Below the pieces are notes generated by a model. It was given only the letters and a program-made list of their open reading frames with translations, ran no database searches and was not told the origin of the DNA. Of a stretch of DNA of 28,535 bases, positions 2,737 to 18,047 are shown piece after piece. Numbering within the stretch: the first letter of the stretch is position 1; each line of letters starts with the position of its first letter. Both the position numbers and the translations under genes were made by a program. Source of the DNA: a virus; IMG/VR virus record IMGVR_UViG_3300032271_000842, positions 1-28,535 of that record; one strand, given 5' to 3'.

Positions 2737-3012
2737 TTACTTTTCCAACTTTTCAATTAATTCAACAAACTGAACAAAAGCATCTGCAAATGTTTCATGT
2801 TCAGCAGTAATGTCTACAATATGAATTGCATTATTTTTGCCAAAACGCTTATCCAGATAGTTCAAAAATGCTTCTGCATATGCTTTTACAAACTGTTCTG
2901 AAGTTGTATACTTGTGGGCTTTACTCTGAATGTCTCCATAGGTAGTCCCCGTTTTTGTTTTGTTGGCATACTCGTGTCCAAGTTGCGACCATTTATTTTC
3001 ACTATAGCTCAT
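2737..3012 (-). CDS. Hypothetical protein just downstream of the tmRNA
   Basis: 91 aa, mixed helical, no recognised motif. The ribosome site AAAGGAT lies 6 bases from the ATG. The start is only 14 bases after the mature tmRNA 3' end, so this gene is probably on the same primary transcript, with RNA processing freeing both. Confidence 0.65.
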   Translation of the reverse strand: MSYSENKWSQLGHEYANKTKTGTTYGDIQSKAHKYTTSEQFVKAYAEAFLNYLDKRFGKNNAIHIVDITAEHETFADAFVQFVELIEKLEK

Positions 3013-3025
3013 TTTTTATCCTTTG

Positions 3026-3257
3026 TGGAGATGGGCGGATTTGCACCGCCGTCTTATATGTTTTCAATTATACATTATTACAGTATTTTTGTCTAGAGTT
3101 TTATTACTTTATTTTTATGCAAATTTCTGTTCCCAACTAATTGCGAGTCGGCTTGTGGCTTAAGCAGCCAGAGCGAGGGTATTTTTAGATACGCCGTTTA
3201 TTTTTATTTTATTACTGATGTATAAGAGTCTGCATACAATCGAAACTGTTCATCCCC
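3026..3257 (-). ncRNA. ssrA: Compact transfer-messenger RNA (tmRNA)
   Basis: The RNA starts GGGGATGAACAGTTTCGAT (3257 down), the typical tmRNA 5' end. The 3' end has a T arm, GGCGG-TGCAAAT-CCGCC (3050-3034), then CATCTCC (3033-3027) and discriminator A (3026). The acceptor stem GGGGATG/CATCTCC pairs over 7 bp and includes G3:U70, the alanyl-tRNA synthetase identity element. P2 is supported by a perfect 8-bp helix, TTATACAT (3225-3218) with ATGTATAA (3075-3068). The tag frame lies at 3195-3160. A hairpin TGGCT/AGCCA (3170-3156) encloses the tag stop, followed by a possible pseudoknot (CCGACT/AGTTGG at 3151-3133, with loop GCAA pairing to TTGC at 3122-3119). CCA is not encoded. At about 232 nt it is much shorter than usual bacterial tmRNA (about 350 nt). 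Confidence 0.92.
3160..3195 (-). other. tmRNA tag reading frame, GVSKNTLALAA-stop
   Basis: From the resume codon GGC (3195-3193) the frame reads G V S K N T L A L A A and ends TAA (3162-3160). It is preceded by AAAAATAAAC, like the A-rich context ahead of other resume codons. With the alanine carried by the RNA, the appended tag would be A-GVSKNTLALAA. The C-terminal ALAA is the usual degron for ClpXP-type proteases in actinobacteria. The exact resume codon is inferred from this context. Confidence 0.85.
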
Positions 3258-3398
3258 TTATTTAATTTTACCACATTTGGTGCATGAACTATTTACATAT
3301 TCATGCTTGTGATTAGCTTTTTTGGGTCTAGGTTTAGCTTCAACCTTTTTTCTTCTACCCCGAATTACTTCGTCATCTGGATCAATCCAGTTTTTCAT
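3258..3398 (-). CDS. Small basic protein with a C-terminal zinc-binding motif (46 aa)
   Basis: Starts MKNWIDPDDEVIRGRRKK, has a Lys/Arg/Pro-rich middle, and ends HKHEYVNSSCTKCGKIK. The HxH plus CxxC suggests a small zinc site. It overlaps the glycosyltransferase stop by ATGA. Its own TAA is the last base before the tmRNA 5' end, so the two are exactly adjacent. Possibly nucleic-acid binding from its charge. Confidence 0.65.
   Translation of the reverse strand: MKNWIDPDDEVIRGRRKKVEAKPRPKKANHKHEYVNSSCTKCGKIK
3265..3273 (-). promoter_or_regulatory. Possible extended -10 for the tmRNA
   Basis: The minus strand reads TGGTAAAAT, an extended -10 form, ending 7 bases before the first G of the tmRNA. 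Transcription from it would start at or next to the mature 5' end. There is no matching -35. The alternative is read-through from the promoter near 5.7 kb followed by 5' processing. Confidence 0.35.
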
Positions 3399-4522
3399 AA
3401 CCCTTTTGCTTTCTTATAAATTTCAATAATGGTATCTGACCACTCATGTATCTTAGTTTGAAGATTGTATTTTTCTATAACAACTTCATAACCTTTTTGT
3501 GCTTCTGCCCTTCTAACATCTTGATCTAGATAAGACTCTAAGTGCTTAATCCATTCTGCAGGTTTTGTTGCAATTCTTCCTGCACCATCTTGATTAAGCA
3601 ATTTGTATTCTTTAGTTCCTGATGCAATAAATGGAATACCAGACATAGCATATTCAATTCCCTTAAGACTTGACTTTGCTTCATTAAATGGAATCATATC
3701 TAAAGGAACTAAACCGATATCCATATTTAATAAAATGTTGCCGTAATTCCAAACATTGGTTCCAGTAACTTCAACAAGACGCTCTGGGTCCATTTTAGTA
3801 AGTTCTGCAAATTGTTTTGGCTTATCCATTAACATACCTGCGTGATAAAACATTAAGTCATGCTTTTCTACAAATGGTCCAATAATTCCTTGAAGTTTTT
3901 CTACATCATGTTGTCTCCACAACATAATTCCTACCCAACCAATTGTAGGATACTTTCCTGCACGATCAAATCTTTTTAAAAATAAATTTGGGTCAACAGA
4001 ATTACGAACAATATAATTATTTTTATTCTGCTTTCCATAATTGTTTGCAAGAAATTCTGTGCTATGAATTAATGCATCTGCAGCCGTATATGATTTATGC
4101 ATGTGGTCACGATTCCATTTATCATCTTTATTTCGGTGAGTTGTATGAAAAGCAATATTAGTTTGTGGCAATCCCATAAACCAATCATCAATGTCAATAA
4201 TAACAACCTGACCATATTCACGAGCCTTTTCAATCATTTCTTGTGCCTTATGCCACATAAACAATTTAATTACAACAACGTCAAGCTTATCAAATGCCCC
4301 CGCAGGATTTTCAATTGGTGCTCTACTATTTTGAGAAAGCCTTAGTGATGTTGGTGCAACAACAAAGCCTTCTCCATCTTTCCAGCCAATTTCTCCACAT
4401 ACTGATTCGTGACCAACTGTGTTTAAGTAATTAGCAATTGACATCATTCTGATCCAAGTGCACCCACCTGGAGAACCTACTTGAAAGTCAGCCCAATCTG
4501 AACTGATAAAACCTATTCTCAT
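3395..4522 (-). CDS. GT4-like glycosyltransferase (GT-B fold)
   Basis: 375 aa, normal length for GT4. The N-terminal domain opens MRIGFISSDWADF with a glycine-rich GSPGG at about 17-21. The C-terminal half has GWVGIMLW and an FNEAKSSLKGIEYAMSGIPF stretch, whose E-x7-E arrangement fits the nucleotide-sugar binding region of GT4 enzymes. It probably moves a sugar from an NDP donor to a phage- or host-derived acceptor in the cytoplasm. Overlaps the epimerase by ATGA, so the epimerase may supply its donor. Confidence 0.8.
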   Translation of the reverse strand: MRIGFISSDWADFQVGSPGGCTWIRMMSIANYLNTVGHESVCGEIGWKDGEGFVVAPTSLRLSQNSRAPIENPAGAFDKLDVVVIKLFMWHKAQEMIEKAREYGQVVIIDIDDWFMGLPQTNIAFHTTHRNKDDKWNRDHMHKSYTAADALIHSTEFLANNYGKQNKNNYIVRNSVDPNLFLKRFDRAGKYPTIGWVGIMLWRQHDVEKLQGIIGPFVEKHDLMFYHAGMLMDKPKQFAELTKMDPERLVEVTGTNVWNYGNILLNMDIGLVPLDMIPFNEAKSSLKGIEYAMSGIPFIASGTKEYKLLNQDGAGRIATKPAEWIKHLESYLDQDVRRAEAQKGYEVVIEKYNLQTKIHEWSDTIIEIYKKAKGL

Positions 4523-6492: not shown

Positions 6493-6954
6493 TTAATACC
6501 AACCGAAACGATAAGAATGACCCAGTGCATTACAGGGACTTCCATACCTCTTCTTGATGTAATTTAGTCCCCATTTAATTTGCACCGATGGGTCGGTTCT
6601 CCAATTTCTTCCGTATTTTGCCATTTTTGAACCTGGCAATGCTTGTGGTATTCCATGTGCACCAGAGGAGTTATGAGCATTTACTCTCCAACCGCTTTCT
6701 CTATTCCACAATGTTGTTAAACAGGATACTTGCTGTCCACACCATCCATATTTACTGGACATATATGCTTGAGCAAATCTTTTATTATACGCAGGACTTG
6801 CATAAGCAACCCTAGTATAACTTCGTGTAGCAGTTGCTACACACCTGTTCTGTCTTTCATTAGCGTTGGCTTGATTCTGGGCTATTGGTAGCGATACAAG
6901 AAAACTTGTAAGAAGCGCAATAGCGGGAACCAAAACCTTGGTTTTGAATCGCAT
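6493..6954 (-). CDS. Secreted transglycosylase/lysozyme-like protein
   Basis: 153 aa. A Sec signal peptide is clear: MRFKTK, a hydrophobic core at 7-25, and a likely cleavage after ANA (29-31). The mature part has four cysteines (C38, C72, C78, C141) and an SLT-like fold signature: TLWNRESGW with probable catalytic E86, then SSGAHGIPQALPGSK, and a WGLNYIKKRYGSP end. Actinobacteria carry many such exported lysozyme-like proteins. It would cut peptidoglycan from outside, so it may be a signal-type lysin or a cargo gene affecting the host wall. It sits between tRNA genes under its own strong promoter. Confidence 0.8.
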   Translation of the reverse strand: MRFKTKVLVPAIALLTSFLVSLPIAQNQANANERQNRCVATATRSYTRVAYASPAYNKRFAQAYMSSKYGWCGQQVSCLTTLWNRESGWRVNAHNSSGAHGIPQALPGSKMAKYGRNWRTDPSVQIKWGLNYIKKRYGSPCNALGHSYRFGWY

Positions 6955-12501: not shown

Positions 12502-12837
12502 CTATCCTTTGTTTCTATCTATTATACCACTTTTCTTGGCTTTTTTCAGAAGCAAGTACCCAATAAGGTCATCTTCATCATTATCTCCATCAAACAACTT
12601 TTTATTTTTAATTCTATTTAATTTATCATCAATGCGAACATTTAACTGTTCCATATCATTTGCATCACTGAAAATACGAATAGGATTAAGAGCTGAGTTG
12701 CCATAAGCAATATTTTTAGCCAGTAGCATAGATGTAATATCTAGGCAAGCATTAAGTATCTCAATTCCTGCGGGGGCTTCAAAAGCCATTTCTAACATTG
12801 CTGAAATTTGTAAATCTAAATCTTTCATTTTACCCAT
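12502..12837 (-). CDS. Conserved phage protein (DUF1599/DUF6378-like)
   Basis: 111 aa from ATG at 12837, which makes a TAATG overlap with the glycosyltransferase stop. The core LLAKNIAYGNSALNPIRIF, then EQLNVRIDDKLNRI and DDLIGYLLL is a widespread phage sequence I associate with the DUF1599 nucleotide-modification-related domain; the exact family is uncertain. The conserved KN-x-YG, RIDDKL and D-L-x-GY residues suggest a nucleotide-binding or hydrolase role. Confidence 0.65.
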   Translation of the reverse strand: MGKMKDLDLQISAMLEMAFEAPAGIEILNACLDITSMLLAKNIAYGNSALNPIRIFSDANDMEQLNVRIDDKLNRIKNKKLFDGDNDEDDLIGYLLLKKAKKSGIIDRNKG

Positions 12838-13379
12838 TACCAAGTCATTCCTTTTCTTGAATAGTTTGTGTCATGGAAGTTATATTCCCATGTCACATTG
12901 TTTATTTTATTAAATCTTGCACCATTACTAGCAAGTTTCTTCCACATTAGCCAGTCGCAGTCTTGTCTTCTATCAAACCCGCCCACACCTAGCATTAGTT
13001 TTCTTTTTACTAAGGCTGTAATGGGAACAATGGATTCTTTTTGCAGTCTATTATAATCAAACTCTGATTCATAATTAATAATACCTAAAGGGTCTTGAAC
13101 CTTTGGATTGCTATAAATAACATCATATCCTTCTGAATTTTTAATAAGTTTTTCTAAATGATCGGGATACAAAATATCATCATCATCTAAATAACAAACC
13201 CATTCAGTATTAGCCATATGCAAAAGTTTTTGATATGTATCAAAATTACCTTGCTTTTTTACATCGACTAAAACAATATGGTTTGCAGGTTTTATCTTTT
13301 GCTCTGATACAGATTTTATAGCATTAACCACCATACTAGACCGCTCTGGTATGGTGGCTGTTAGAACAGTTATGTTCAT
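12837..13379 (-). CDS. Family-2 (GT-A) glycosyltransferase
   Basis: 180 aa from ATG at 13379 (MNITVLTATIPER), again a TAATG overlap with the upstream gene. The metal-binding acidic stretch LDDDD sits near residue 64, followed by ILYPDHLEKL. The C-terminal GGFDRRQDCDWLMWKKL is the usual acceptor-side motif. Compact, with the catalytic GT-A core only. Confidence 0.82.
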   Translation of the reverse strand: MNITVLTATIPERSSMVVNAIKSVSEQKIKPANHIVLVDVKKQGNFDTYQKLLHMANTEWVCYLDDDDILYPDHLEKLIKNSEGYDVIYSNPKVQDPLGIINYESEFDYNRLQKESIVPITALVKRKLMLGVGGFDRRQDCDWLMWKKLASNGARFNKINNVTWEYNFHDTNYSRKGMTW

Positions 13380-14392
13380 TAAAGCTTGAGCCACTCTGGG
13401 TGCGCTATTGTCCACTCAACCGTTCTCTTTATAGATTCTTCAAGTGGAATTGGAAGTGACCAACCAGTTTCAGAAATTTTTGTTCCATCAAGAGCATACC
13501 GCAAGTCGTGACCTGGGCGAGATGAATGAAAATCTACTAATTCATAATTAAGCGGTTTTCCTACTGCATCAGCAATCATTTGTGCCATTTCAAGATTATC
13601 TACCTCACGTTCTCCAACAATGTGAAAACGCTCTGGCATATCCACTTCACCATAAAGGGGAAAGTGCTGGTTAAGAACATGCAATAGTCCGTCTGCTTGA
13701 TTGCGAGCATGTAGGTAAAAACGGCTTCCAATCTCACCTGTTGGTGATGCATGGATAGTCATCCTTTCTCCACTAAGAACACGCTTAATTGTCATGGGCA
13801 TAAACTTCTCTGTGTCCTGCGTTTCACCAATAATATTCATTGTATTGGTAATAGCCAGCGGGATTCCATAAGTACGCCAATAAGAAAATGCAATGTCCTC
13901 TTGTGCTGCCTTTGATGCAGAGTATGGATTACTTGGAAAATGCTGGTCTACCCATTCACGGTGAGCGTACCCTGCTGGTGCTGGACCATAAACTTCATCT
14001 GTTGATACCTGCAAAAACTTTTCTGGTTGTGCAATTCTAGCCCAATCAAGGAGATGACAAATTAATGATACATTGTTAATAATAAATGGTGCGGGATAAT
14101 CAATGCTGCGGTCCACATGGCTTTCAGAAGCCACATTAATTACATAATCAATTTTGCCAAATTCGTGTGCGGTAACTACAGAAATTGGAGCAGTAAAATC
14201 ACAACGAATAACTTTAACACGCTTATATGCATCATCAATACCGTCACAGGCAACTCTAATTCTATCTGTTAATCCTTTGTGAGTAAATGTTGTTGGGCAA
14301 ACAACTTCCCAATTTGTATTTACTAAAATGTGTCGTAGCACATGGCTACCTACGAAACCCGAGGCTCCTGTGAGTAATACTCTTTTTGTCAT
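13379..14392 (-). CDS. dTDP-glucose 4,6-dehydratase-like (RmlB-type) enzyme
   Basis: 337 aa extended SDR. Rossmann motif GASGFVGS (9-16), SESHVDRSID (89-98), the STDEVYG signature (130-136, with D132 and E133) and YSASK (157-161) are all present, as is SRPGHDLRYALD. It removes water from an NDP-hexose to give the 4-keto-6-deoxy sugar, a precursor of rhamnose-like sugars. No RmlA, RmlC or RmlD is in the window, so the final sugar is unknown. Good ribosome site AAAGGA and own promoter. Confidence 0.88.
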   Translation of the reverse strand: MTKRVLLTGASGFVGSHVLRHILVNTNWEVVCPTTFTHKGLTDRIRVACDGIDDAYKRVKVIRCDFTAPISVVTAHEFGKIDYVINVASESHVDRSIDYPAPFIINNVSLICHLLDWARIAQPEKFLQVSTDEVYGPAPAGYAHREWVDQHFPSNPYSASKAAQEDIAFSYWRTYGIPLAITNTMNIIGETQDTEKFMPMTIKRVLSGERMTIHASPTGEIGSRFYLHARNQADGLLHVLNQHFPLYGEVDMPERFHIVGEREVDNLEMAQMIADAVGKPLNYELVDFHSSRPGHDLRYALDGTKISETGWSLPIPLEESIKRTVEWTIAHPEWLKL

Positions 14393-14415
14393 TACAATCC
14401 TTTTCTATTTGTATA

Positions 14416-14444
14416 ATTTTAACATTTTTTATTTATTATGTAAA
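14416..14444 (-). promoter_or_regulatory. Promoter ahead of the RmlB-like gene
   Basis: Minus strand TTTACA (14444-14439), 17-base spacer, TAAAAT (14421-14416) with a TG extension (TGTTAAAAT). The start near 14409 gives a short leader with AAAGGA. It lies in the only clear gap of the sugar and packaging region and would drive genes from here through terminase. Confidence 0.65.
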
Positions 14445-14447
14445 GAA

Positions 14448-15035
14448 TTATTTTATTCCTTTTCCAAGCCTACCAGGTAGGTGTGGTCTAACATCATATA
14501 GATGTTTTTTATACCAGCTAACAGAGTGACCGTTCTTAACAATATTTTCTACATGATAGAAATCTGTCAATCCTATGTCGGGACTCATGTTTGAATAAAA
14601 TGGGTAATTTTTTAAAACTTCAGTTTTGTATGTTGGTACAGCAACATTACCTGCATAAAGACCGTCATTCATGCAAACCATATGTCCATCGTTATATCTT
14701 AAACCTGGGATCCAAATATCAATACTTGGTTCTGAATTAACAATAACATTCATATACTGTCCAGCACCTTCAACATATTCATCGTCATCATCTAACAAGC
14801 ATATGTATTTTGTATTACAGTTTTGTGCACCTAAATTTATTGCTGCCCCGCCGTATAAATCAATTTTTTCTGTAGTCTTTAAATATGTTGCTTTAATTGG
14901 CAAATTTAAAAAATCTAAATCTACATTGTCAGCAACAACAATAACATTATTAAATTCTTTTATGGCATTTTTTATTGCATTAGCAAGAGTTTCTCTACCA
15001 ATTGTTCTGATTAATACTGTAATATTATTTTCCAT
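14448..15035 (-). CDS. Family-2 glycosyltransferase-like protein
   Basis: 195 aa from ATG at 15035 (MENNITVLIRTIGR); an in-frame ATG at 15074 would overlap the neighbour by 50 bases. Acidic motif LDDDDE at 81-86, preceded by NLGAQNCNTKYICL, the typical GT-A layout. Ends near WYKKHLYDVRPHLPG. Last gene of the run that starts near 18 kb; a gap with a promoter follows. Confidence 0.78.
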   Translation of the reverse strand: MENNITVLIRTIGRETLANAIKNAIKEFNNVIVVADNVDLDFLNLPIKATYLKTTEKIDLYGGAAINLGAQNCNTKYICLLDDDDEYVEGAGQYMNVIVNSEPSIDIWIPGLRYNDGHMVCMNDGLYAGNVAVPTYKTEVLKNYPFYSNMSPDIGLTDFYHVENIVKNGHSVSWYKKHLYDVRPHLPGRLGKGIK

Positions 15036-15888
15036 TTTTATACTTTTTATACAATGATGAAACGGAATCATCAAATACCAACTTCACCACAGTTCCGTCT
15101 AATCTATGCATCTTGCCATCTGTTTCACTATTTGCTTGCCACTCTTCAATTAAGTATCCAGAATTGAATTGTTTTGCATACCTTTGAACATGCCATCCGT
15201 GACCTTCTGGGTATCCCGCATCAATTAATCTTTGTCCCTGTTCTGCCTTAATTCTTAAAGCAACATAAGATCTTAAGGGAATATGATATGCAGCAAAATT
15301 TTCATCTGTAGAGTAATCTTGTGACTGACCTGAAAAAGAATGCGCTCCAGGGGCAATAGATAAGTTTGGAGAAGTTCTAACAATATACTTATAAAAGGAT
15401 GGATTTTCTAACATGGACCTGCTTCCATTAGAAATTTCATCAAGTGTAGGTTTGATATCTGTTACACATCTCCAGTTTACAGTTTCATATGTATCTTTTC
15501 TTGGGTCTAGCATTGCACTAGACTGAATAAAATCTGTCAGCTTCACTCTAACTGCTGAATTATTTATATTTTTTAAATCCTCCGCCAAAGTATTTTTTGA
15601 AAACCATATTTCATCTGCATCAAAAGGTACAACCCATTCACAGCCAGCATTGTAAGCCATTGATGATAAAAAATTAATTATTCTTTGTTGATGAAATTGA
15701 CCATCATCTTTATACAAAATAATTTTAGAATCTGTTTGTGCTCTTTCTTGCAGGTATTCTAGTGTGCCATCTGTGGATCCATTGTCACAAATAAAAATAT
15801 AATCTAACCCTTGCGATAAATGATGGTCTAAACAAAATTCAATTACATCTACTTCATTTCTTACCATTGTTATTCCAGCAATTTTCAT
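15025..15888 (-). CDS. Family-2 glycosyltransferase (Glyco_tranf_2_4-like)
   Basis: 287 aa. MVRNEVDVIEFCLDHHLSQG, CDNGSTDGT and FDADEIW (89-95) match the GT2 group in which DxDE binds the metal and nucleotide sugar. The second half includes a conserved H-rich stretch (APGAHSF, AAYHIPLRSY). This is one of the clearer enzymes of the island. ATGA-type overlap with its upstream neighbour. Confidence 0.85.
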   Translation of the reverse strand: MKIAGITMVRNEVDVIEFCLDHHLSQGLDYIFICDNGSTDGTLEYLQERAQTDSKIILYKDDGQFHQQRIINFLSSMAYNAGCEWVVPFDADEIWFSKNTLAEDLKNINNSAVRVKLTDFIQSSAMLDPRKDTYETVNWRCVTDIKPTLDEISNGSRSMLENPSFYKYIVRTSPNLSIAPGAHSFSGQSQDYSTDENFAAYHIPLRSYVALRIKAEQGQRLIDAGYPEGHGWHVQRYAKQFNSGYLIEEWQANSETDGKMHRLDGTVVKLVFDDSVSSLYKKYKNGK

Positions 15889-16568
15889 CCGTATGTTCCT
15901 GTTCTAATATGTCCAATATGTTCTACTTTATGGGTATCAAAGATAGCTCCTAAAAAGGCTGAGTATAAATTATTATTATTACTAAATAATCTATTGCCAA
16001 ATTCTCCCTCTGTAATCAATTCTGAAGAATTTTCATAAATTGGCTTTGCATACCTTCTTAATCTTTCAACATTCATAAATGAAGGATTTGTTGTAAAAAA
16101 CTCTCTATGCTCAAACCAGCCATCTTTTTGAATGAAATTAGATCCATTGTAGATTCTTTCTATCATCCCGCCAGCAGCAACTTCTTCTTGCGACCATGCT
16201 TGTCTCTTTAAGCAAAGCTGAATAATATTATCATTATTATCTAAAATATTTAATATTTTGTCAACATCAATATTTTCTAATAACAAAAAATCATCTTCTA
16301 GTAGCAACAAGTACTTTGATTCAAATTTTAAATTAGTTAACCATGTTTTCATAAGAAAAGAAAATCCCATATTGTTTTCTCCCAGTGGCATAATAGTAAA
16401 GTCTGGGAATGTTTCAGACAACCAGTCTCGATATTCTTGATTTCCTGAATCATCAATAATAATTTTATTATTGATATTAGAATCAATAAAATTCTTCCAC
16501 GAATTTATTGTTGGAAGAATATATTCTTTTCTCCCATTTGTTGTTATAATTAAATCAATTTTTTTCAT
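15885..16568 (-). CDS. GT-A glycosyltransferase-like protein
   Basis: 227 aa. MKKIDLIITTNGR opens a GT-A fold; LLLLEDDF (EDD at 91-93) is the acidic motif. It ends EHIGHIRTGTYG. Notably rich in Asn, Ile and Leu, consistent with local AT-richness. Donor and acceptor unknown. Confidence 0.72.
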   Translation of the reverse strand: MKKIDLIITTNGRKEYILPTINSWKNFIDSNINNKIIIDDSGNQEYRDWLSETFPDFTIMPLGENNMGFSFLMKTWLTNLKFESKYLLLLEDDFLLLENIDVDKILNILDNNDNIIQLCLKRQAWSQEEVAAGGMIERIYNGSNFIQKDGWFEHREFFTTNPSFMNVERLRRYAKPIYENSSELITEGEFGNRLFSNNNNLYSAFLGAIFDTHKVEHIGHIRTGTYG

Positions 16569-17356
16569 TATAGTTCTAGCCTTCTCTTCATTTCATTACT
16601 TGAAAATGACCATTGTGGTGAAACTTGTGACAAATAATAATTATACTCATCTTTTGTCATTGGTGGCTGATAATACCAGCCATAGTGTTGTGCAGTAAAG
16701 TTTCCACCAATTCTTACGCACCTATCTTTTACCTGCATAGGTGCATCGTATGGAGTAAAAAACTTTTTATTTACTAAGCAAAATGTTGTATCAATTGCTG
16801 CAAGATAAATTGGGTCTGCTGTTTTAGTAAAACCAATTTGATTAGCATAGAATTGTTTTTCCCACTGATACATTGTAACATTTTGTGCAAACATAATATC
16901 TTTTATGTTTGAATTACCTTTTAAATTTTCCATTTCAATATCTAAGGCAAATCCAACCTTGTACATAGAATATTGTTCAGAAACATCTGAAAGAATTTCA
17001 ACAAAATTATGTGGAATATTGGGATTGATACCAATATCTGGGTCGGTTAAAATAAACTTTTCTGGCAACCAATTAAATAAATCTTTATTCTTGTAATATT
17101 CCCTTGGACCATCATTGGTAAATTTTTTAACAACATGGCACCCGAACTTTTTTGCAGCATGATTTAGCATCTCCTGCATTATTGGACTTTTTGAAAAATT
17201 GTCTAAAATAATAATATCCTGATATTCAAAACCAAACATTCTCAACTGCTCTATCATATTACACATATATGTTGGATTATTAAATGTTGGAATGATTACT
17301 GGAAGTTCAGGACTTTTAGCTTCTTTAACCATTTGTCTAATTGTATTATAAATCAT
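16568..17356 (-). CDS. GT-A glycosyltransferase-like protein
   Basis: 262 aa. LPVIIPTFNNPTYMCNMIEQL is a GT2 start, IIILDNFS a middle strand, and FILTDPDIGIN the DxD-like acidic motif. A later IYLAAIDTTFCLVNK and HYGWYYQP fit the acceptor half. Overlaps the upstream gene by 11 bases. Confidence 0.75.
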   Translation of the reverse strand: MIYNTIRQMVKEAKSPELPVIIPTFNNPTYMCNMIEQLRMFGFEYQDIIILDNFSKSPIMQEMLNHAAKKFGCHVVKKFTNDGPREYYKNKDLFNWLPEKFILTDPDIGINPNIPHNFVEILSDVSEQYSMYKVGFALDIEMENLKGNSNIKDIMFAQNVTMYQWEKQFYANQIGFTKTADPIYLAAIDTTFCLVNKKFFTPYDAPMQVKDRCVRIGGNFTAQHYGWYYQPPMTKDEYNYYLSQVSPQWSFSSNEMKRRLEL

Positions 17357-18047
17357 TATTAAAATTCCTAATCTTTTCTATATCTAAATGCTTATTATCA
17401 TTCATGTAGTTAGTAAATTTTTGTTGATCAATCATCATTCTATTTGAAATTTCATTTGATATGTGATCGTGACTATCCTTACCAACACTGGGATGCATAT
17501 GTTCCATAATAGTGTGAGGAAAGTATTGTAATTGACCAACTTCTCTTACAATGTCCATCCAATAATTATCAAAATAATTATGTTCTAGGGCGGGGCATCC
17601 AAAAAATCCCACCGCTTTAATCATATTGCTAGTAATACATGGATGGGTGGCAAGTCTTTCTCCATGCACAAAATCATTAGCGTAAGCTAAACCATAGTCT
17701 ACATTTGACAGGAATTCAATAAAATTAGATTCCCAACTTGTTCTAAAAATAATATCATCACCGATAAAAGCAACATACTTATATTTTTCCGCTAAATCCA
17801 CAGAGATAGAATTAATTTTTTGCATAAGAGTTATTCCAGCATCGGCAAAATGAATATGTAAAACGTACTCAGGAATGTTTTCAAATAAAACCTTATAGTT
17901 TTCAATATCATCATAGTCAACAATAATATGAATATCTGATAAGCCTTCTGTAAAAAGTTTATATGATTCTAGACAACGCATTAATCTTGCTGACCTACCT
18001 GTGCCAGCATCACGAACTGGAAGAACTACTGCAATTTTATCTTTCAT
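17346..18047 (-). CDS. GT-A glycosyltransferase-like protein
   Basis: 233 aa. IAVVLPVRDAGTGRSARLMRC opens the fold and FIGDDIIFRTSWE carries the acidic motif. The second half contains PALEHNYFDNYW and MEHMHPSVGKDSHDH, a His/Asp-rich segment that may complete the active site. First enzyme of the island; TAATG overlap with the HTH gene upstream. Confidence 0.75.
   Translation of the reverse strand: MKDKIAVVLPVRDAGTGRSARLMRCLESYKLFTEGLSDIHIIVDYDDIENYKVLFENIPEYVLHIHFADAGITLMQKINSISVDLAEKYKYVAFIGDDIIFRTSWESNFIEFLSNVDYGLAYANDFVHGERLATHPCITSNMIKAVGFFGCPALEHNYFDNYWMDIVREVGQLQYFPHTIMEHMHPSVGKDSHDHISNEISNRMMIDQQKFTNYMNDNKHLDIEKIRNFNNDL

Follow-up and report, generated by a model that had tools for sequence, protein, structure and literature searches.

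The window analysed here, a stretch of viral DNA 28,535 nucleotides long, encodes a compact, one-piece, phage-borne transfer-messenger RNA (tmRNA), the RNA that releases stuck ribosomes, at positions 3257–3026 of the minus strand. We regard it as highly probable that this is a functional, streamlined tmRNA of a large actinophage, most likely acting in ordinary trans-translation with host AlaRS, EF-Tu, SmpB, RNase P and proteases. A chance resemblance is excluded because a full-length match to Rfam RF00023, the z-score of the minimum free energy (MFE) and 17 homologues with compensatory changes all support the gene. Phage tmRNAs as a kind are well established; what is new is a modest variant, a form without PK1 and with a single pseudoknot, as judged against a survey published in 2005.

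Detection and architecture of the tmRNA gene

When the window was scanned with all Rfam models (cmscan), RF00023 covered the whole tmRNA (model positions 1–374 of 374; 44.8 bits, E = 2.1e-16). The score falls about 2 bits short of the gathering cut-off of 47, which is a curation threshold rather than a biological feature. The model for permuted, two-piece tmRNAs, RF04321, reached only 19.3 bits, where the cut-off is 47, and the order of the acceptor strands is that of a one-piece, not a permuted, molecule. Folded as a single strand, the RNA had an MFE z-score of −3.1, with none of 200 dinucleotide shuffles as stable. A covariance model of its own lineage, whose training set includes the window, scored it at 237 bits.

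The default Rfam scan and ARAGORN at default settings returned only three tRNAs from the window and not the tmRNA, an annotation gap in which this copy escapes ARAGORN and falls outside the Rfam cut-off. Both programs had been proposed as checks in the preliminary description: Infernal with Rfam yielded the full-length, sub-threshold match given above (E of 2e-16), and ARAGORN was negative for the window copy and positive for the homologues L115 and L118, in which it called the tag GVSQNTLALAA. With loosened scores, ARAGORN produced 55 and 116 low-scoring tmRNA candidates in 28.5 kb, none of which was used. The positions (3026-3257) and minus strand given in the same description proved correct, G1 lying at 3257 and the discriminator A at 3026, and its estimate of about 232 nt agrees with the measured 232 nt, against about 350 nt in most bacteria. 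It would have abandoned the reading had covariance models found no match and relatives shown no conservation; both a match and conservation were found.

Table 1 Features of the tmRNA gene and its surroundings. Positions refer to the window; tmRNA nucleotide k corresponds to window position 3258 − k.
Feature	Positions	Strand	Remarks
tmRNA gene	3026..3257	−	G1 at 3257, discriminator A at 3026; 232 nt; RF00023 match and 17-homologue alignment
Acceptor stem, 5′ strand GGGGAUG	3251..3257	−	pairs with 3027-3033; 7 bp
Acceptor stem, 3′ strand CAUCUCC	3027..3033	−	discriminator A at 3026
T arm GGCGG-UGCAAAU-CCGCC	3034..3050	−	100% paired; 2/5 pairs changed on both sides
P2a UUGUAUG/CAUAUAA	3233..3239 with 3054-3060	−	nt 19-25/198-204; 7 bp; 4/7 pairs changed on both sides
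P2b/c UUAUACAU/AUGUAUAA	3218..3225 with 3068-3075	−	nt 33-40/183-190; 8 bp; 99.3% of cells paired
P2d CAGU/ACUG	3214..3217 with 3081-3084	−	nt 41-44/174-177; 4 bp
A-rich linker in place of PK1	3196..3213	−	18 nt, ends AUAAAC; unstructured, MFE 0.0 kcal/mol
Tag frame GGC...GCU-UAA	3160..3195	−	peptide GVSKNTLALAA
P5 hairpin with stop codon	3152..3173	−	nt 85-106; 95.1% of cells paired; 1 pair changed on both sides
H-type pseudoknot at PK2 position	3119..3150	−	CGACU/AGUUG (nt 108-112/120-124) and GCAAUU/AUUUGC (nt 114-119/134-139)
Promoter-like TAGACA-17-TATAAT	3067..3095	−	inside tmRNA, overlaps P2 3′ strand and CUAGAC motif; 11/12 against sigma-70
Small ORF	3258..3398	−	46 codons, starts ATGAAAAACTGGATT; UAA stop abuts tmRNA G1
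Downstream ORF	2737..3012	−	AAAGGA ribosome-binding site starts one base past the last base of the tmRNA
Glycosyltransferase-like gene	3395..4522	−	upstream of tmRNA; phrog_7162

The elements named in the preliminary description, namely a 7-bp acceptor with G3:U70 and discriminator A, a T arm, an 8-bp P2 helix and a tag frame ending in ALAA, were all recovered (Table 1). The tRNA-like domain comprises the acceptor with G3:U70 (positions 3255 and 3029), the T arm and a reduced D region. All seven acceptor pairs are unchanged in 17 of 17 sequences, and the D-region motif GUUUCGA is conserved across their alignment. The discriminator A is followed by CAA, so that CCA is not fully encoded. In the T loop, a G occupies the place where the second U is usual, a rare substitution shared with the permuted Caulobacter tmRNA (PMC1168896). 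Between the tRNA-like and mRNA-like domains lies a long P2, in which the P2b/c helix is flanked by P2a and P2d, and compensatory changes are found in all three. A terminator-like site at 3034-3050 was rejected, being simply the T arm read from the opposite strand.

The mRNA-like domain combines a resume signal, a tag with a hydrophobic-Ala-Ala end and a stop codon within P5. The resume codon GGC (Gly) stands at nt 63 and is preceded by AUAAAC; the UAA stop occupies nt 96–98. The frame spans 11 codons in every one of the 17 homologues and always ends in [LF]ALAA, and the AUAA-preceded Gly codon is conserved among them along with the tag. Variable tag sites number 6, 2 and 5 at first, second and third codon positions, the last corresponding to 5 of 11. 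Comparative work identified AUAA or AUAG before the resume codon as the preferred signal (PMC4236655), and a Gly resume codon was recorded in 30 of 274 tmRNAs (PMC1168896).

Homologues, loss of PK1 and comparison with known tmRNAs

Because BLASTN with the window tmRNA against isolated phages yielded nothing useful, relatives were reached by other routes, and 16 further compact copies were gathered via the terminase, RF00023 searches of whole records and two DNA patterns. The 16-nt pattern AATAAACGGCGTATCT retrieved mostly contigs that yielded no tmRNA, accompanying one only in L082, L110, L115 and L118. A longer tag-region motif was not found in bacterial genomes, and the T-arm/acceptor pattern occurred there in scattered Patescibacteria, Clostridia and one Ancillula, with no clear source of the gene. 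Short RF00023 matches of 10–23 bits in related records, which resemble tRNAs or T-arm matches, were left out.

In the alignment of 17 sequences (A6), 48 pairs, including the pseudoknot, are formed in 96.9% of cells. Changes on both sides were observed for 13 pairs, against 0–2 in controls slid by 1–3 columns; many of the sequences are closely related, so that shuffle-based figures cannot be read as probabilities, whereas the slid controls preserve this relatedness. Where the contig covers it, the terminase is 61–67% identical to that of the window in sister phages and 84% in L019. With this gene, an uncultured actinophage lineage is added to the phage tmRNAs.

A 17-nt gap at PK1 is common to five sequences of the 17-sequence alignment (the window, G018, G005, G009 and L110; 231–239 nt). 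The same 17 nt in the 12 sister copies form the ACAAG...CUUGU stem, the first of PK1, and supply the 5′ half of its second stem. The linker of the PK1-less copies measures 18–20 nt and has no predicted structure, compared with 36–37 nt for the corresponding segment in sister phages. P2d has been kept despite the deletion, CAGC/GCUG in the sisters becoming CAGU/ACUG or AAGU/ACUU with a compensated pair; one of the four pairs is A-G in both G009 and L110. Inspection showed PK1 in Streptomyces phage Gilson and in the longer tmRNAs of L083–L085, and its absence is therefore regarded as the derived state. PK2 is retained, with 4 of 11 pairs changed on both sides and its two helices paired in 85.9% and 98.0% of cells. 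Nothing resembling the helices of PK3 or PK4 was apparent, by inspection and MFE, in the A-rich region between PK2 and P2. The four-pseudoknot architecture, which is typical and not required, is represented by PK2 only, and the molecule appears from its sequence to be left with one pseudoknot after a 17-nt deletion in PK1.

Pseudoknot number varies among tmRNAs (PMC1168896). In E. coli tmRNA, pk1 has been replaced by single-stranded RNA with tagging still efficient (PMC4236655), and a natural PK1-less tmRNA would therefore be expected to work. The 2005 survey listed only Oenococcus oeni and a partial Pavlova sequence without a pk1 pseudoknot, both having lost helix 4 alone, whereas both PK1 helices are gone in the window; its shortest ORF-bearing tmRNA was that of Synechococcus PCC7009, at 250 nt (PMC1168896). 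By 2025, the tmRNA database held 97,179 sequences (PMC11915505). We tentatively propose, with rather less than even confidence, that the window encodes a natural minimal tmRNA, that is, a one-piece, PK1-less, single-pseudoknot molecule that would perform full trans-translation, rank among the smallest tag-bearing tmRNAs known and have arisen via a traceable 17-nt deletion. A natural series of steps runs from PK1 plus PK2 (Gilson-like) through a small PK1 plus PK2 (sisters) to PK2 alone (window), allowing the dispensability of tmRNA parts to be tested on natural molecules; the PK1-less form is of interest mainly to tmRNA specialists.

One survey recorded tmRNAs in 402 of 18,146 phage genomes (PMC9004378). 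The preliminary description had stated that some large actinophages encode tmRNAs, and such genes are established for mycobacteriophages of cluster C1 and for BE2 Streptomyces phages (PMC9583779, PMC13191466); its proposal of a compact, phage-encoded tmRNA is likewise supported by cultured Streptomyces phage relatives with annotated tmRNAs at the corresponding place. The annotated tmRNA of Gilson, 268 nt long, lies about 13 kb downstream of the terminase, and BLASTN with it retrieved 35 Streptomyces phage records, many of them annotated, ANSNFALAA and ANSKNASAYALAA being among the tags. Gilson and its relatives (Stanwilliamsviridae, Loccivirinae) share with the window a one-piece tmRNA, a homologous terminase (67%) and a similar gene order. 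The Gilson tmRNA also resembles that of the window in its place downstream of the terminase, its short tag ending in ALAA (ANSNFALAA) and the absence of SmpB from the phage. It differs in its size, higher GC content, Ala resume codon, ordinary UUCGA T loop and the presence of PK1 (CUUCUU...AAGAAG with GGUC/GGCC, by inspection).

The sister contigs L131–L145 from IMG/VR have the T loop, Gly resume codon, P2, P5 and PK2 of the window and tags of the form G..Q..[LF]ALAA, whereas they measure 246–253 nt, possess a small PK1 and score 66–85 bits, above the Rfam cut-off. Bacterial one-piece tmRNAs (RF00023, E. coli ssrA type) likewise contain a tRNA-like domain, P2, tag frame, P5, PK2 and AUAA signal, but in most bacteria carry four pseudoknots in about 350 nt, compared with one in 232 nt. 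Plastid and some cyanobacterial reduced tmRNAs parallel the window in the reductive loss of pk3 and pk4. The two-piece tmRNAs of Melnitz-type marine phages (PMC9004378), which are also aquatic phage tmRNAs, have a permuted gene order, unlike the window (RF04321, 19 bits).

Two further arrangements were observed in related phages. In Streptomyces phage TunaTartare (NC_070784, L188:1191-1969), an unannotated tmRNA is split by an HNH/endonuclease VII ORF of about 500 bp inserted after PK2 and before the 3′ part of P2; the RF00023 match extends across the insertion at 50.5 bits, and no group I intron model was among the matches listed. The tmRNAs at L083:1501-1794, L085:1504-1800 (minus strand) and L084:1501-1784 are 284–297 nt long, with long tags (e.g., GTFITESALRNKIAEFVRVPVAA) ending in VAA; the L084 tag was apparently misread by ARAGORN.

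Proposed function and alternative explanations

The tmRNA would be transcribed within a phage operon, after which host RNase P and 3′-processing enzymes would trim the ends and the host would add CCA. The ORF stop at G1 and the ribosome-binding site after the 3′ end suggest such a release from a longer transcript. Host AlaRS would charge the molecule through G3:U70, an identity element that is present, and host SmpB and EF-Tu would bring it to ribosomes stalled on broken mRNA. On a scaffold of P2, P5 and one pseudoknot, translation would switch to the GGC that the AUAA(A)C signal marks and would add A-GVSKNTLALAA, both signal and frame being conserved. The ribosome would be released at the UAA in P5, and host proteases reading the C-terminal LAA may then degrade the tagged fragment.

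A search for SmpB (PF01668), positive in 10 control bacteria, was negative for the window and for all 19 related records; Gilson is represented by its complete genome, the window and most other records by fragments. On this sampling, no self-contained phage system for trans-translation is indicated, and host SmpB would therefore have to serve. Full replacement of host trans-translation, one of two roles offered in the preliminary description, is accordingly unlikely, whereas the other, a supplement to the host system, is plausible. The phage may benefit from the rescue of ribosomes stalled on mRNA broken in infection, or when host tmRNA is short.

The missing SmpB and lost pseudoknots would also suit a small decoy RNA that obstructs host trans-translation by binding SmpB, EF-Tu or AlaRS, for which a parallel exists in the tag-less tmRNA-like RNA of mycobacteriophage DS6A, an inhibitor of endogenous tmRNA in E. 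coli (as cited in PMC11915505). This role is improbable because the tag is under constraint: the frame, resume signal and stop hairpin, all needless for a decoy, are kept in 17 of 17 copies, and codon changes preserve [LF]ALAA. The small size, missing PK1 and sub-threshold Rfam score might instead be read as signs of a decaying passenger, a copy of a host tmRNA that is becoming a pseudogene and loses its pseudoknots on the way. Decay is very improbable, however, given that P2, PK2 and the T stem show compensatory changes, that the tag is open in every copy and that the tmRNA is retained across phages whose terminases are about 61–67% identical; the deletion, moreover, spares P2d with a compensated pair.

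A chiefly regulatory element, with the embedded TAGACA-17-TATAAT as promoter of the downstream gene and the likeness to tmRNA secondary, could draw on the presence of this promoter-like sequence in 17 of 17 copies, with a spacing of 17 in 16 of them and 11 of 12 consensus positions matched. Variants comprise TTGACA in L135, L141 and L145, a spacer of 18 in G009 and TATACT in G005. Yet the RNA accounts for both boxes, CUAGAC being similar to a conserved tmRNA motif and TGTATAAT forming half of P2, and a promoter leaves the covariation of the whole molecule unexplained; we consider this reading extremely improbable. Within a functional tmRNA gene, the promoter-like element could still drive the downstream ORF.

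Phage identity and gene neighbourhood

The window encodes a DnaE-type polymerase, RecA, primase, SSB, terminase, several glycosyltransferases and a transglycosylase. The terminase shares 67% identity with its counterpart in Gilson (Stanwilliamsviridae), the polymerase is 55% identical to those of Streptomyces phages such as Wakanda, and the gene order is similar to theirs. By these comparisons, the window appears to be part of the genome of a Stanwilliamsviridae-related actinophage, and the matches in terminase, polymerase and gene order to Streptomyces phages indicate that the host is probably an actinobacterium. The GC content of the window is 36%, far below that of Streptomyces.

The layout of ORF stop, tmRNA and ORF ribosome-binding site is retained in G018, G005 and G009, in which the end of the abutting ORF, AAATTAAATAA, is identical. 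The downstream ORF, for which no PHROG match was found, is syntenic in L082, L110, L115 and L118, and the glycosyltransferase-like gene, 77–86% identical, adjoins the tmRNA in L019, L110, L115 and L118. In L135, L136, L139, L141, L142 and L145, a TATAAT lies about 6 nt upstream of G1; transcription in these sister phages, unlike in the window, might begin right at the 5′ end of the mature tmRNA.

Elsewhere in the window, glycosyltransferase genes cluster with one for a nucleotide-sugar epimerase at positions 12837-18047, possibly serving glycosylation of DNA, the virion or the host surface. Positions 6493-6954 encode a transglycosylase-like protein with a likely signal peptide, which resembles an actinobacterial resuscitation-promoting factor or a lysis enzyme.
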